Assembly (NCBI GenBank): GCA_903921365.1
Contig: CAIXPS010000392.1
Location: 1-45,060, forward strand
Length of the DNA: 45,060 nt
Source of the DNA: an uncultured bacterium
GTDB taxonomy: Bacteria > Chloroflexota > Anaerolineae > J036 > Brachytrichaceae
Direction of reading: 5' to 3'
The notes under the pieces were generated by a model. The model had not been told where the DNA came from. It saw only the letters and a program-made list of their open reading frames with translations, and made no database searches. Made by a program: the position numbers and the translations under genes. Position 1 is the first letter of the stretch. Each line of letters starts with the position of its first letter. This document shows, piece after piece, positions 3 through 33,600 of this stretch.

Positions 3-1247
3 CCGCTGGAGGAGATTCGCACCGAGGCGTTCGTCGCCACGCTGCACCACGCGGCGCTGATGCTGGTCGATTACATCAACGTCGACGGCACGCTCAACCC
101 CGAGGTGTACGCGTTCCTCGGCGAACTCAACCGGCAGAGGGCCGCCTACGAGCCGTATCTGGGCGGTGAGTTGCAGGCCGATGTGGCGATCTACTTCGAC
201 AAGGAATCGATGTACAACCCGGACGAGAACGGCGTGCACGTGCTGAAGCTGACGGCGATTGACCGCTGCCCGCATCGCGAGGCCGTCGTCGGGATGGCGC
301 GCATCCTGCAACAGGCGCATATCCCGTTTGGCGTCGTGACGAACATCAACCTTGATCAACTCAGCAAGTACCGCGCCGTGGTGTTGCCGAACGTGCTTGA
401 ACTGACCTCGGCACAAGCCGATGTGCTACGCGAGTTTGTGCAAAACGGCGGCGCGTTGTACGCCAGCGGCGCCTCCTCGCTGCTGCGCGCTGAGAAACGC
501 TTCCTGCTCGAAGACGTGCTCGGCGTGCGCTATGCGGGCAAGCTCGGCACGCAGGTCACGTATTTGACGCCCGCTCTAACGGCGGCTCACGTAAAAGCCG
601 CCATCTGGCCGCAGGATCACCTGAGCTTTGCCGGGGCGATGATCCAGGCCGAGGCGTTGCCCGGTACGCCCGGTACGCGCGTAATGGCCCAGGTCACCCT
701 CCCGTTCGTCGCACCAGAGATCGGCACGACCATCGGCAGCCGCTTTGGCGCGATCCACAGCAACCCACCGGCGCTCACACCCACGCCGCATCCAGCGATC
801 GTGACGAACCGCTACGGCAAGGGTCGCGCCGTGTGGGTCGCTGCCCCGATTGAATCGACGAACGAGCAGGTGAATCACAAACTCGTCCTGCGGCTGTTGG
901 GCGATATCTGCCCCGCGCCGTACTGCCTGCAGGTCGACGCCCATCCTGCGGTGGAAGCCACGCTCTTCCGCCAGCCGGACAAATGCCGCGCCGTCATCAG
1001 CCTGCTCAACCTGCAACAGCAACTGCCGCAAGTGCCGGTGGGCGCCAAAGTGGCGCTGCCCTTGCGCTCAGGTGAACAGGTCACGCGGGTCGTGCGCCTG
1101 CCCAATCAAACCGACCTGCCGTATTCCATCGAGAACGGCGCCGTACACTTTGCGCTCGACCCGTTTGATACCTTTGCCATGGTCGGGGTCGAAATCCCAA
1201 ATCTCCAATCTCCAATCTCTCCGGAGGAATTCAATGAACGTGACTGA
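3..1247 (+). CDS. Beta-galactosidase-trimerisation-domain protein, 5' truncated
   Basis: This is the C-terminal part of a larger protein. The frame is open from base 3 with no start codon of its own, so the gene begins upstream of the window. The residues around VDYINVDGTLNPEVY, a middle segment resembling a class I glutamine-amidotransferase-like fold (VVLPNVLELTSAQADVLREF, then NGGALYASG) and a C-terminal beta-rich part resemble the trimerisation and tail regions of GH42-like glycosidases. A catalytic domain would lie outside the window, so the substrate is unknown. The last residues (PNLQSPIS, then PEEFNERD) are encoded by an AATCTCC repeat, so the natural C-terminus has probably been replaced. 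The gene overlaps the next one by 14 bases, which implies one operon. The family call is from motif memory and is moderately sure. Confidence 0.6.
   Translation, partial: PLEEIRTEAFVATLHHAALMLVDYINVDGTLNPEVYAFLGELNRQRAAYEPYLGGELQADVAIYFDKESMYNPDENGVHVLKLTAIDRCPHREAVVGMARILQQAHIPFGVVTNINLDQLSKYRAVVLPNVLELTSAQADVLREFVQNGGALYASGASSLLRAEKRFLLEDVLGVRYAGKLGTQVTYLTPALTAAHVKAAIWPQDHLSFAGAMIQAEALPGTPGTRVMAQVTLPFVAPEIGTTIGSRFGAIHSNPPALTPTPHPAIVTNRYGKGRAVWVAAPIESTNEQVNHKLVLRLLGDICPAPYCLQVDAHPAVEATLFRQPDKCRAVISLLNLQQQLPQVPVGAKVALPLRSGEQVTRVVRLPNQTDLPYSIENGAVHFALDPFDTFAMVGVEIPNLQSPISPEEFNERD
1189..1222 (+). repeat. AATCTCC heptanucleotide repeat copy at a gene end
   Basis: About three AATCTCC-like units lie in the last codons of the first gene, just before the GGAGG ribosome site of the next. 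The same motif recurs near 11412, 13209, 28348, 29513, 31399 and 32291. Confidence 0.8.
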
Positions 1248-2900: not shown

Positions 2901-3114
2901 GGGCAACCGCAAGGCGCGATGCGTGCCTCTACAACGCGCCTCGACATGGGGCAACCGCAAGGGATTGCCCCTACAACGCGCCTCGATATGGGTCAAATGC
3001 AGGGGATTGCGTCAATCGGATGTCATCATGCGTAGGGGTAAACCCTTGCGGTTACCCGACATCACGCGATTTCATGCGTAGGGGCAATCCCTTGCGGTTG
3101 CCCGTTATCACGCG
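2901..3114. repeat. Clustered inverted repeat element (GTAGGGGCAA...GGTTGCCC)
   Basis: Four or five copies of one unit lie between two same-strand genes. The best pair is a perfect 26-base inverted repeat: 2949-2974 reads GGGCAACCGCAAGGGATTGC then CCCTAC, and 3078-3103 is its exact reverse complement. Imperfect copies lie at 2901-2937 (direct) and 3030-3067 (inverted), with a decayed one around 2990-3010. Each copy is followed or preceded by a CACGCG- or ACGCG-like edge. No protein frame is convincing here. I recall similar units as dispersed intergenic repeats in Chloroflexota and other genomes. Transcribed, the whole stretch would fold into one large stem. Confidence 0.85.
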
Positions 3115-3160
3115 TTTTGATTATTTTACTGAGGGCTGAGTGTACACCGTTGTCGGAAAA

Positions 3161-13208: not shown

Positions 13209-13241
13209 ATCTCCGATCCCTAATCTCCAATCTCTATTCTC
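13209..13241. repeat. AATCTCC repeat copy, intergenic
   Basis: GATCTCCGATCCCTAATCTC continues as CAATCTCTATTCTC immediately before the stop codon of the minus-strand cystathionine gamma-synthase/lyase-type gene at 13245. It is adjacent to the GGCTTTAGC element, so two repeat families abut. Confidence 0.75.
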
Positions 13242-28375: not shown

Positions 28376-29558
28376 CACGGTAATTGTGAAGCGGGACTTC
28401 GCGCGTGCGGCACTCGGCCTGCACCCCGGCTTTGGCGCACACCAGATCCACCACCTTCTCAGCCATCACGCGCGCGGTGACCGTCTTGCCGCCGGTGATC
28501 GTGATGAACCCCGGCACGCCTTCCTTTGCATGGTCGAAGCATTCGAAGGTGCGGCTGAGTTCGCGCCCATCGCCAAGTCTGGCCGAGCCGATCAGCGGTC
28601 GCGCCGCCGCCCATGCGGCGCGGTAGGGGATCGATTTCACGATCGGCATCATCTCCGCAGTCAGGTCGATCATGCGTTGCGCGTGGTCGGCGGGGATGTC
28701 GATCGCGTCGGCGTCCTTGACCACCCATGAGGATGTGCCTAGCAGGCTGGTCTGGCGCTGCGGCACCAGGATGTCGCCGTCGCCGGGCAAGTACATGCGA
28801 TGGATCACCATGCGGTTGATGCGCTGCGGGATGCTGACCATGACGCCCGCGGTAGGCACGACCGGCACATCGCATCCGGCTATCTGCGCCACGCGCCCGC
28901 TCCACGGGCCGGTCGCGTTGATGACGAAGTCGGCGTCGATCTGCTGCACCTTGCCTGTGCGCAGATGGCGCACAGTGACGCCTTGCGCGCCGTTGTGGCC
29001 ACGCTGGATATCTGTGACCTGGCAGTAGGTGTGCACCGTTGCGCCGTTGGCCTGCGCGGTCGCGAGGAAGCACAGACAGAAGCGGAACGGCTCGAACACG
29101 CCGTCGGGCACGCGCACGGCGGCCCGGATGGCGGGGCTGAGGTTTGGCTCCAACCGGCGCGCCTCACTGACGGACAACTCATGGGCGTCGATGCCCGCCT
29201 GCTCACAACCGGCCAGGAAGCGCGGCTTGAACGCCTCGTCGCGGTCGTCGACCGCTATCATCAAGCCGTCGTTCAGTTCCAGGCCGCCGGCCATGATGCG
29301 CCGCAGGATGAGGTTCTCCTCGATACACTCGCGCGCGGCAATGGGGTCGTTAACCACATAGCGCGCGCCGCTGTGCAATAAACAGTGGTTCCGTCCGGTG
29401 GTTCCGCCGGCGACTTCGCTGCGCTCGATTACGGTGACGCGAAAACCGCGCAACGCCAAGTCGTGCGCGACTGCCGCACCGGTCGACCCTGCGCCGATGA
29501 CGACGACGCGCAGGGATGAGAGGGATGAGATTGGAGATGGGAGATTAGAGATTGGCAT
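28359..29558 (-). CDS. FAD-dependent glycerol-3-phosphate dehydrogenase-like oxidoreductase
   Basis: This 399-residue flavoprotein has the Rossmann motif VVVIGAGSTGAAVAHDLALR, the second GG-motif GGTTGRNHCLLHSGARYV of glycerol-3-phosphate dehydrogenases and the family-like VINATGPWSGRVAQIAG and a C-terminal GFITITGGKTVTARVMAEKV. The family oxidises glycerol-3-phosphate at the membrane in E. coli GlpA/GlpD; related members act on hydroxyglutarate or other acids, so the substrate is likely but not certain. The first residues MPISNLPSPISS are translated AATCTC repeat (29513-29558). No native Met lies between them and the Rossmann strand, so the repeat supplies the start. It follows the aldo/keto reductase by 10 bases. 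Confidence 0.85.
   Translation of the reverse strand: MPISNLPSPISSLSSLRVVVIGAGSTGAAVAHDLALRGFRVTVIERSEVAGGTTGRNHCLLHSGARYVVNDPIAARECIEENLILRRIMAGGLELNDGLMIAVDDRDEAFKPRFLAGCEQAGIDAHELSVSEARRLEPNLSPAIRAAVRVPDGVFEPFRFCLCFLATAQANGATVHTYCQVTDIQRGHNGAQGVTVRHLRTGKVQQIDADFVINATGPWSGRVAQIAGCDVPVVPTAGVMVSIPQRINRMVIHRMYLPGDGDILVPQRQTSLLGTSSWVVKDADAIDIPADHAQRMIDLTAEMMPIVKSIPYRAAWAAARPLIGSARLGDGRELSRTFECFDHAKEGVPGFITITGGKTVTARVMAEKVVDLVCAKAGVQAECRTREVPLHNYREFYLS
29513..29558 (-). repeat. AATCTC repeat supplying a start codon
   Basis: The minus strand reads ATG, CCA ATC TCT AAT CTC CCA TCT CCA ATC and TCA-like units directly ahead of the Rossmann fold codons of the oxidoreductase gene. The repeat is coding and forms the N-terminus. 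Confidence 0.8.
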
Positions 29559-29568
29559 GCGATTGCGG

Positions 29569-30516
29569 CTACTTGCGCCAGCCGAGGGTGATCTGGCTGA
29601 GCAGGTCGGCTTCGTTGTCGGTCATGTCCCAGCCGATAGCCCCGGCATTGGCTGTGGCATGTTGCGCGTTCTTCGCGCCGGGGATGGGCAACACGCCCGG
29701 CTGGCGCGCCAGCCAGTTCAGCGCTACTTGCGCGGGCGTTCTGCCGTCGTGGGCGTCGCCGATCTGGCGCAACGTCTGGATCACAGGCTGGATGCGTTCC
29801 AGCGCAGCAGTGTTGTAATCGGGCATGAAACGGCGCGGCGCGGGCGGCGGGTTCGACGGGCTGTACTTGCCGCTCAGCATCCCCTGCGCCAGTGGGCTGT
29901 AGGCGATCAGCGTGACATCCAGTTCACGACAGGCCGCCCATACGCCGTCCACTTCGGGCGCGCGATGGAGCAGGCTGTATTTCACCTGGTTAGAAACAAG
30001 CGGCAGCCCGCGCTTCGCGAGTGCGGCGTGTGCGCGCCGCATCTCCTCGGCGCTGTAGTTGCTCACGCCAATGTAGCGCACTTTGCCGGCGGCGACAGCA
30101 TCCGCCAGGATGTCCATCAACATCTCGATCGGGATGACAGGGAACGGCCAGTGCACCTGGTAAAGATCGACCTGCGCCACGCCAAGCCGCTTCAGGCTCT
30201 CATCGAGCGCGTGCGTCACGGTGCGCCGGCCAATCCGCATGGGTAAAGGCGCGAATTTGGTCGCGATGACGATGGGTTTGTGGGTGGTTTTGGCGCAGGC
30301 GCCGAGCACCCGTTCCGAGCCGCCGAGCCCGTACATCTCGGCTGTGTCAAAGAAGGTGAGCCCGGCGTCGACCGATGCCTGGAACGCCGCTTCCGCATTT
30401 GCGCGGTTGTAATTGCGGCCGATTCCCCATATCAAGTCCTCGCCCCACTGCCATGCGCCGATGCCCATGGGTGGAACGCGTAAATCGCTTTTGCCAATCT
30501 GGATAGTGCTGTGCAT
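29569..30516 (-). CDS. Aldo/keto reductase
   Basis: This 315-residue protein has the NADPH-dependent aldo/keto reductase signatures. These are the catalytic Asp/Tyr region LTFFDTAEMYGLGGSERVLG, Lys in PIVIATKFAP, QVHWP with the His, GVSNYSAEEMRRA and a C-terminal PIPGAKNAQHATANAGAIG nucleotide-binding motif. The start is ATG 30516, followed by HSTIQIGKSDLRVPPMG. A longer open frame runs to 30978 through the C-rich repeat and the opposite-strand uvrA start, and is rejected. It probably forms an operon with the downstream oxidoreductase. Substrate unknown. Confidence 0.92.
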   Translation of the reverse strand: MHSTIQIGKSDLRVPPMGIGAWQWGEDLIWGIGRNYNRANAEAAFQASVDAGLTFFDTAEMYGLGGSERVLGACAKTTHKPIVIATKFAPLPMRIGRRTVTHALDESLKRLGVAQVDLYQVHWPFPVIPIEMLMDILADAVAAGKVRYIGVSNYSAEEMRRAHAALAKRGLPLVSNQVKYSLLHRAPEVDGVWAACRELDVTLIAYSPLAQGMLSGKYSPSNPPPAPRRFMPDYNTAALERIQPVIQTLRQIGDAHDGRTPAQVALNWLARQPGVLPIPGAKNAQHATANAGAIGWDMTDNEADLLSQITLGWRK

Positions 30517-30696: not shown

Positions 30697-33600
30697 GTGG
30701 CACAAGAAAAAATCGTCGTGCGCGGCGCGCGCGTTCACAATCTGAAAAATATCAACGTCGAGATTCCTCGCGATAAACTCGTCGTCATCACCGGTCTGAG
30801 CGGCAGCGGCAAGTCGTCGCTGGCGTTTGACACTATTTTTGCGGAAGGCCAGCGGCGCTATGTCGAGAGTCTGTCGGCCTATGCGCGCCAGTTTCTGGGG
30901 CAGATGGAGAAGCCCGATGTCGATCACATCGAAGGGCTGTCGCCTGCTGTGTCGATCGACCAGAAGGGTTCCAGCCACAACCCGCGCTCAACGGTGGGCA
31001 CCGTCACCGAGATTTATGATTACCTGCGTCTGATGTTTGCCCGCATCGGCATCCAGTACAGCCCCGTGACCGGCCTGCCGCTGGTGTCGCAGTCGGCGGA
31101 GAGCATCGTCGATAGTATCGGCCGCTTGCCCGCCGGCACGCGCGTGCAGGTGCTGGCTCCGCTCATCCGCGATCGCAAGGGGCATCACTCAGGCATCTTC
31201 GACGATATCCGCAAGGAAGGCTTTGTGCGTGTTCGCGTCGATAGTCAGGTGCATGACGTGAGTGAAGAGATCGAACTCGACCGCTACAAGATCCACAACA
31301 TCGAGGCGGTGGTTGACCGGCTGGTTGTTCCGGAGCAGAACAGAGAGATTGGAGACTCGGGATTAGAGATTGCCGGAACCCAAGCTCCACGCGAAGCGTC
31401 TAATCCCCAATCTCCAATCACTAATCTCTCTTCTCCCAGTGAGTTGGCGCAGTTCCTTACCCGCCTGACCGATTCTGTCGAGACGGCGTTGAAACTGGGC
31501 GACGGGTTCTGCGTCGCGATGGTGCAGGAGCCGGCGCCCGAGGCCGCCTGGCGCGATGTGTTGTACAGCGAGAAACGCGTTGATCCAGCCACCGGGATCA
31601 GTTACGGCGACCTTGAGCCCAAGCTGTTCTCGTTCAACTCGCCCAATGGCGCATGCCCTGATTGTCAGGGGTTGGGCAGCAAGATGGAGATCGACCCGGC
31701 GCTGATCGTGCCCAACGTAGAACTCAGCCTCGATGAGAGCGCCATTGCCGCGCTCGAATGGTCGAGCGATGACAGCGGTTATTACAGCCAGATGCTGGCT
31801 GCGGTGTGCGCTCATTTCCATATTCCGATGAACAAGCCGTGGAGCAAGCTGACTGAGGCGCAACGCAACACCATTCTATCTGGCACCGATGGGCAGAAGG
31901 TGCGCGTGGATTACCACAATCGCATGGGCGACCAGCGCGCTTTCGATACCGCTTTTGAAGGCGTGATTCCGAACATGATGCGGCGCTACCGCGATAGTTC
32001 GTCGGAGTGGATTCGCGAGAAGATCGAAGAGTACATGACCTACCGCGTTTGTCCCACGTGTCAGGGCAAACGGCTCAAGCCCGAGGTGCTGGCTGTGCGC
32101 GTGGGCGACCTGAATATCGCCACGATCGCCGACCTGAGCATCGGCAAGGGGCTTTTGTGGGTGAAGGCGCTCGTGGGCGAAAGAGGGGGAGACGCGGAGC
32201 GGGAGCGGAGGAGAAGAGGTGAAGAGGAGAAGACGAGCGGAGGCGAAGGGGTGAGGGGGAGCAGAGGAGCGGGGGAGCAGAGGAGCGAAGAATCTCGAAT
32301 CTCGAATCTCCAATCTCCAATCTCCTCAGCTCAGCCGCTGTCTGAGCGGGACTATTTCATCGCGGGCGGTATTTTGAAGGAGATTCGCGCGCGTTTGCAG
32401 TTCATGGTCGATGTCGGGCTGGACTATCTCACGCTCAGTCGCGCGGCGATGACGCTGAGCGGCGGCGAAGCGCAGCGCATCCGGCTGGCGACGCAGATCG
32501 GTTCGCAATTGATGGGCGTGTTGTACGTGCTGGACGAACCGAGCATCGGCTTGCACTCGCGCGATCAGGCGCGCCTGATCGTCACGTTAAAGCACATGCG
32601 TGATCTAGGCAATACCGTGCTTGTGGTGGAACACGACGATGACACGATGCGCGCGGCTGACTGGATCATCGACATGGGCCCTGGGGCGGGCGTGAACGGC
32701 GGCAATGTCGTTGCCACTGGCACGATCAAGGACATCATGAAGCACAAGACATCGCTGACCGGCGCGTATCTCAGCGGACGGCTGCGCGTGGACGTCCCGG
32801 CCACACGACGCAACGGCAACGGGCGCTCCATCGTGGTGCGTAATGCGCGCGAGAACAATCTGAAGAATATCGACGTCTCGATCCCACTCGGCAAGTTCGT
32901 ATGCGTCACTGGCGTGAGCGGCAGCGGCAAGAGCTCGCTGATTGTTGAATGCCTGTATAAGAAAGCCGTCAACGTGATCAATGGGGCGATGGAACGCCCC
33001 GGCGCGATGGACGCCATCGAGGGGTTGGAGCACGTCGACAAGGTCATCAATATCGACCAGCAACCGATTGGGCGGACGCCACGCTCAAACCCTGCGACAT
33101 ACACCGGCCTGTGGACTCCCTTGCGCGACCTGTTTGCCAGCACCCCCGAGAGCAAACTGCGCGGTTACAAGAGCGGACGCTTCAGCTTCAACGTAAAGGG
33201 CGGGCGTTGCGAGGCCTGCGAAGGGCAGGGCGTGATCCAGATTCAGATGCAGTTCATGCCCGATATTTACGTGACCTGCGATGTGTGCAAGAGCTCGCGC
33301 TTCAACCGCGAGACGCTGCAGGTGCGCTACAAGGGTAAGAACATTGCCGAGGTGCTCGACATGAGCATCACCGAGGCGCAGGTGTTCTTCAAGGATTTAC
33401 CCGCGATTGCCCGCAAGCTCGACACGCTCACCGAGGTCGGATTAAGCTATGTCAAACTTGGCCAACCGGCGACGACCTTGAGCGGCGGCGAAGCGCAGCG
33501 CATCAAGCTGTCGCGCGAGTTGAGCAAGCGCGCCACTGGCCGCACGTTGTACGTGCTCGACGAGCCGTCGGTCGGTCTGCATGCCGACGACGTGCACAAG

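Follow-up and report, generated by a model that had tools for sequence, protein, structure and literature searches.

The N-terminus of a putative GlpA-like dehydrogenase in an uncultured Chloroflexota bacterium is encoded by a degenerate array of the heptanucleotide AATCTCC. The array probably represents one solitary member of a genome-dispersed repeat family that lies over a same-strand gene junction and is carried by the enzyme as a tolerated, disordered N-terminal tail. The gene was analysed in the window, that is, the whole 45,060-nt stretch of contig CAIXPS010000392.1, together with its genome (G000) and related genomes. The features are listed in Table 1.

Table 1 Coordinates of the features in the window
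Feature	Position	Strand	Remarks
Heptad array coding the C-terminal tail (EIPNLQSPIS...) of one ORF	1193..1219	+	Immediately precedes GGAGG and the next gene's ATG
GlpA-like FAD-dependent glycerol-3-phosphate dehydrogenase / DAO-family oxidoreductase (putative), 399 aa	28359..29558	-	Profile matches, AlphaFold2 model
Degenerate AATCTCC heptad array with CTCATCCCT-duplicated tail	29513..29555	-	Encodes PISNLPSPISSLSS
ATG start codon, in the array flank, outside the repeat unit	29556..29558	-	Only ATG/GTG/TTG in frame before codon 34
10-nt gap CCGCAATCGC from the aldo/keto reductase stop to the dehydrogenase ATG	29559..29568	-	Without Shine-Dalgarno-like site
Aldo/keto reductase (PF00248), upstream partner of the dehydrogenase	29569..30516	-	Adjacency kept in G001, G002, G003 and G004
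Inverted pair of AATCTCC heptad arrays, in frame in a uvrA linker	31345..31428	.	
AATCTCC heptad array, in frame in uvrA	32291..32325	+	

A heptad array at the 5' end of the dehydrogenase gene

The reverse complement of positions 29513-29558 is ATGCCAATCTCTAATCTCCCATCTCCAATCTCATCCCTCTCATCCC, which is read as the codons ATG CCA ATC TCT AAT CTC CCA TCT CCA ATC TCA TCC CTC TCA TCC C. Residues 2 to about 15 of the dehydrogenase (PISNLPSPISSLSS) are thus array-encoded, directly after the start ATG, in agreement with a preliminary description of this DNA in which the first residues were taken for a translated repeat. The clean heptads occupy 29527-29555 (7-nt unit, 4.1 copies, 81% matches) and are followed by the CTCATCCCT duplication, which reaches into codon 16. 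The wraparound score against an endless (AATCTCC)n was 48, a value equalled by none of 20,000 reversed-genome windows (maximum 40). The AATCTCC array at the dehydrogenase start is therefore far beyond chance. No partner arm for a junction hairpin was found in the adjacent genes, so the array at 29513-29555 is solitary, and a hairpin at the reductase-dehydrogenase junction was ruled out.

Because the AATCTCC unit is 7 nt long and all six of its frames lack stop codons, its arrays give the same peptide whatever the frame, NLQSPIS or, in the opposite direction, GDWRLEI. For the same reason, an array beside a start codon keeps the frame open and adds an NLQSPIS-like peptide.

The encoded protein matches PF01266 (DAO FAD-dependent oxidoreductase) over residues 17-362 with 183.2 bits against a gathering cut-off of 27.9. 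Judged from profile scores, its closest family is GlpA, though it lies under the cut-off of TIGR03377 (424.4 bits against 552.8, covering profile positions 2-377 of 530). The AlphaFold2 model of the dehydrogenase has a mean pLDDT of 89.8. In this model the first strand starts at residue 17 and residues 1-10 have a mean pLDDT of 47, suggesting that the repeat-coded segment is a flexible, predicted disordered tail extending up to the Rossmann strand.

The start codon and translation initiation

The preliminary description had proposed that the repeat supplies the start codon. This proposal was rejected, since the ATG flanks the array and no ATG is present at the corresponding edge of other AATCTCC arrays. 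The same description noted no other Met or alternative start before the Rossmann strand. No ATG, GTG or TTG occurs in frame upstream of the ATG in the open stretch, and the next one downstream is codon 34, beyond the FAD-binding motif. The predicted N-terminus is MPISNLPSPISS... from the ATG and MRVVVIGAG... from a CTG at codon 16.

The reported lack of a ribosome site was reproduced, as no Shine-Dalgarno-like site was found in positions -20 to -3 of the ATG (anti-Shine-Dalgarno pairing, -0.3 kcal/mol), and the distance of ten bases to the aldo/keto reductase was correctly given. A missing Shine-Dalgarno-like site is not rare in G000: about 23% of 159 long ORFs from the sampled genome score no better, a rough figure because their starts were set to the first ATG. 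Initiation would most likely take place at the ATG, either by ribosomes that arrive from the reductase, which ends 10 nt upstream, or directly and independently of a Shine-Dalgarno site.

Comparison of the N-terminus and the gene junction among relatives

The N-terminus was compared with 34 orthologues, with tail lengths taken from the 33 that have an assignable ATG. The tail before the first strand comprises 15 residues in G000, the longest compared, against 7-12 within the genus and 2-9 outside it. Just before the first strand, 23 of the 34 orthologues have a His, where the G000 dehydrogenase has an Arg. The longest tail and the lost His show, at the level of sequence comparison, that the array overwrote the local N-terminal sequence of the dehydrogenase, including the usual residue-His dipeptide. 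The array fills the stretch from the flanking ATG to the first Rossmann strand, where it has lengthened a variable, non-conserved tail to its present size. The earlier proposal that a repeat supplies the start codon and the N-terminus is thus supported for the N-terminal residues and not for the start codon. No orthologue outside the genus was found among the 34 to have a G000-like N-terminus, the case by which the repeat origin of these residues was to have been refuted.

The junction was examined in four congeneric genomes, those of the sister species (G001) and of G002, G003 and G004, and the aldo/keto reductase precedes the dehydrogenase in all four. G003 and G004 lack the repeat; in both, the stop codon of the reductase and the start codon of the dehydrogenase share an ATGA overlap, a Shine-Dalgarno-like site (-6.0 kcal/mol) lies within the last reductase codons, and the dehydrogenase N-termini are MSRGAADIHVVV and MSAASQDFHVMV, respectively. 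The dehydrogenase of G001, 89-90% identical to that of G000, follows a 30-nt gap without a Shine-Dalgarno-like site and has a 12-residue tail; its start is MATTNSHPTISSFHVIV, in which an array is not recognisable. In G002, the two genes are about 440 nt apart with a small ORF between them, a Shine-Dalgarno-like site is present (-7.1 kcal/mol), and the dehydrogenase start MPVGNPQSAIGSFHVVV is encoded by GGCAATC-like heptads. GGCAATC was considered as a second dispersed family in G002 and rejected, with only 2 matches.

Beyond composition, the alignment of the N-terminal DNA was not significant between G000 and G001 (P = 0.09) and marginal between G000 and G002 (P = 0.05). The N-terminal peptide of G001 matches the heptad peptide no better than chance (P = 0.66), and for G002 the match has P = 0.03. 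The genus tree is weakly resolved, with 57% at one node. Given the junctions in G001, G003 and G004, the array cannot be credited with the gap, with the absence of a ribosome site or with the gene pairing.

The AATCTCC family in the genome and in other genes

AATCTCC constitutes a dispersed heptanucleotide simple-sequence repeat family that is present genome-wide and above chance. With up to 2 mismatches allowed, AATCTCCAATCTCCAATCTC is matched 318 times in the 6.88 Mb of G000, and the same pattern written backwards 5 times. The counts range about 70-fold among the four congeners, from 9 (G001) to 666 (G003), and 38 of the 60 related genomes searched have zero matches. High repeat counts are also seen in genus g7 of the same family. 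Arrays were located in 341 kb of G000, composed of the window and stretches picked around arrays, in which 68 arrays were detected against 8 in the reversed sequence. No description of an AATCTCC family in Chloroflexota was found in the literature searched.

Many of the arrays are inverted pairs, GGAGATT...AATCTCC, about a short core, and their sequences suggest that the cores between the arms recur. A GGCTAAAGCC-like palindrome precedes the arrays at L068, L071, L076, L079 and window position 13209, and CGCGAAGCG precedes others, such as those at window position 31402 and L102. Elsewhere in the window, at positions 2924-3118, a pair of short tandem duplications of 42 nt and 46 nt occurs with a perfect inverted repeat of 26 nt, GGGCAACCGCAAGGGATTGCCCCTAC; this is probably a further family of palindromic repeats.

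Open frames and codon scores place about 19 of the 68 arrays inside coding sequence, in 13 genes, and further arrays sit just before gene starts. The array-bearing genes, not all of which were checked by alignment, include the uvrA of the window and the gene for dihydrolipoamide acyltransferase, together with in-frame loci in the conserved genes queG (L102), aroC (L074), dnaE (L081), a second uvrA (L076) and the asparaginase gene (L104), dnaE and the second uvrA being named by eye. At window positions 32202-32325, also in uvrA, a GGAGCAGA-type 8-nt purine array stands with a heptad array, in frame in linkers. The array-bearing linkers of uvrA vary among the congeners and are missing from G009. 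At the site of the G000 heptads in asparaginase, RDWSEIANLESLIS is still encoded in the sister G001, whose repeat count is low. In alignments of UvrA, QueG and asparaginase, congeners also have the heptad-peptide linkers of G000, in intact or decayed form. The in-frame heptad insertions in these proteins thus appear to be old and tolerated, which makes a tolerated tail the natural reading for the dehydrogenase as well; this tail is probably tolerated rather than functional.

Alternative explanations

It had been suggested that the native start gave way to the repeat, which would also have coupled the dehydrogenase translationally to the aldo/keto reductase. The 10-nt gap, the lack of a Shine-Dalgarno-like site and a repeat-coded N-terminus that resembles none of the orthologues are in line with this explanation, which is nonetheless unlikely, given that the ATG is not part of the repeat unit. 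Moreover, coupling-type geometry is tighter in the repeat-free G003 and G004, and the sister G001 already has a gap and no Shine-Dalgarno-like site without a clear array. On the junction geometry of G003 and G004, the repeat was rejected as the creator of coupling. The ATG has a competitor in the CTG at codon 16, initiation at which would leave the array as an untranslated spacer between the two genes. Such a start would make the protein similar in length to its orthologues, and several G000 arrays elsewhere lie directly upstream of starts, but CTG initiation is rare, no Shine-Dalgarno-like site precedes the CTG and an open ATG lies upstream, making this start very unlikely.

Contingency genes classically carry a non-triplet repeat in the 5' coding end. 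Slippage of the 7-nt array after the ATG might therefore be imagined to frameshift the dehydrogenase on and off, the unit not being a multiple of three and the array lying within the 5' coding end. The array, however, has only about four units with 81% matching, as read from one MAG contig, and the gene encodes a metabolic enzyme; phase variation seems very unlikely. The reading of a solitary array from the dispersed family, translated as a tolerated tail, is preferred.

Relation to known repeat systems

The AATCTCC family resembles the GGGAATC heptamers of Xanthomonas and the GGGGA(T/C)T arrays of Nostoc, which are short, genome-dispersed and variable between close relatives (PMC4692102), in its 7-nt G-rich unit, its short dispersed arrays and its variation among close relatives. 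Xanthomonas arrays mostly have 4 units and frequently form convergent inverted pairs (PMC4692102); such pairs occur in the AATCTCC family, in uvrA and at many loci, but not at the dehydrogenase site. Unlike the Xanthomonas and Nostoc units, whose GGG or GGGG runs can form G-quadruplexes, GGAGATT has GG runs only. The intragenic share also differs, with roughly 19 of 68 sampled arrays in open coding frames here against 7-11% in Xanthomonas (PMC4692102).

Heptads near a start without a Shine-Dalgarno-like site are shared with the TAACTGA heptanucleotide repeats of Beggiatoaceae, which are found near start codons that often have no recognisable ribosome site (PMC4679880). TAACTGA contains forward stop codons and lies mostly upstream of starts, whereas AATCTCC has no closed frame and is translated in the dehydrogenase. 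The palindromic elements of Rickettsia are described, in the account of Ogata et al. 2000 given in PMC10969869, as about 150 bp long and inserted in frame in unrelated genes. The AATCTCC arrays are similar to them as small dispersed, often inverted-repeat DNA that adds a common peptide in frame, but they are heptad arrays of variable length, and the dehydrogenase copy is a single arm at the N-terminus, a solitary array rather than a palindromic element. The dehydrogenase case combines traits of the Xanthomonas/Nostoc, Beggiatoaceae and Rickettsia repeats.

Significance

For the dehydrogenase itself, the array has little consequence, being a tolerated tail on a metabolic enzyme. The case illustrates how repeat DNA with a non-triplet unit and no stop codons can come to encode a protein's N-terminus with the predicted fold unharmed, and it calls for caution with gene callers, as start-adjacent repeat DNA may be read as protein.

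On a wider scale, the chances seem about even that a Thermoflexales-like Chloroflexota genus carries a family of six-frame-open heptad-array elements by which NLQSPIS or GDWRLEI has repeatedly been written in frame into UvrA, DnaE, QueG, AroC and asparaginase, with some insertions older than the species split and retained since. The dehydrogenase N-terminus would be one such site, with a different heptad, GGCAATC, at the same place in G002. Owing to its in-frame copies in housekeeping genes at sites common to several species, the wider AATCTCC family would be a bacterial test case for new protein segments arising from repeat DNA, comparable in this to the Rickettsia palindromic elements.
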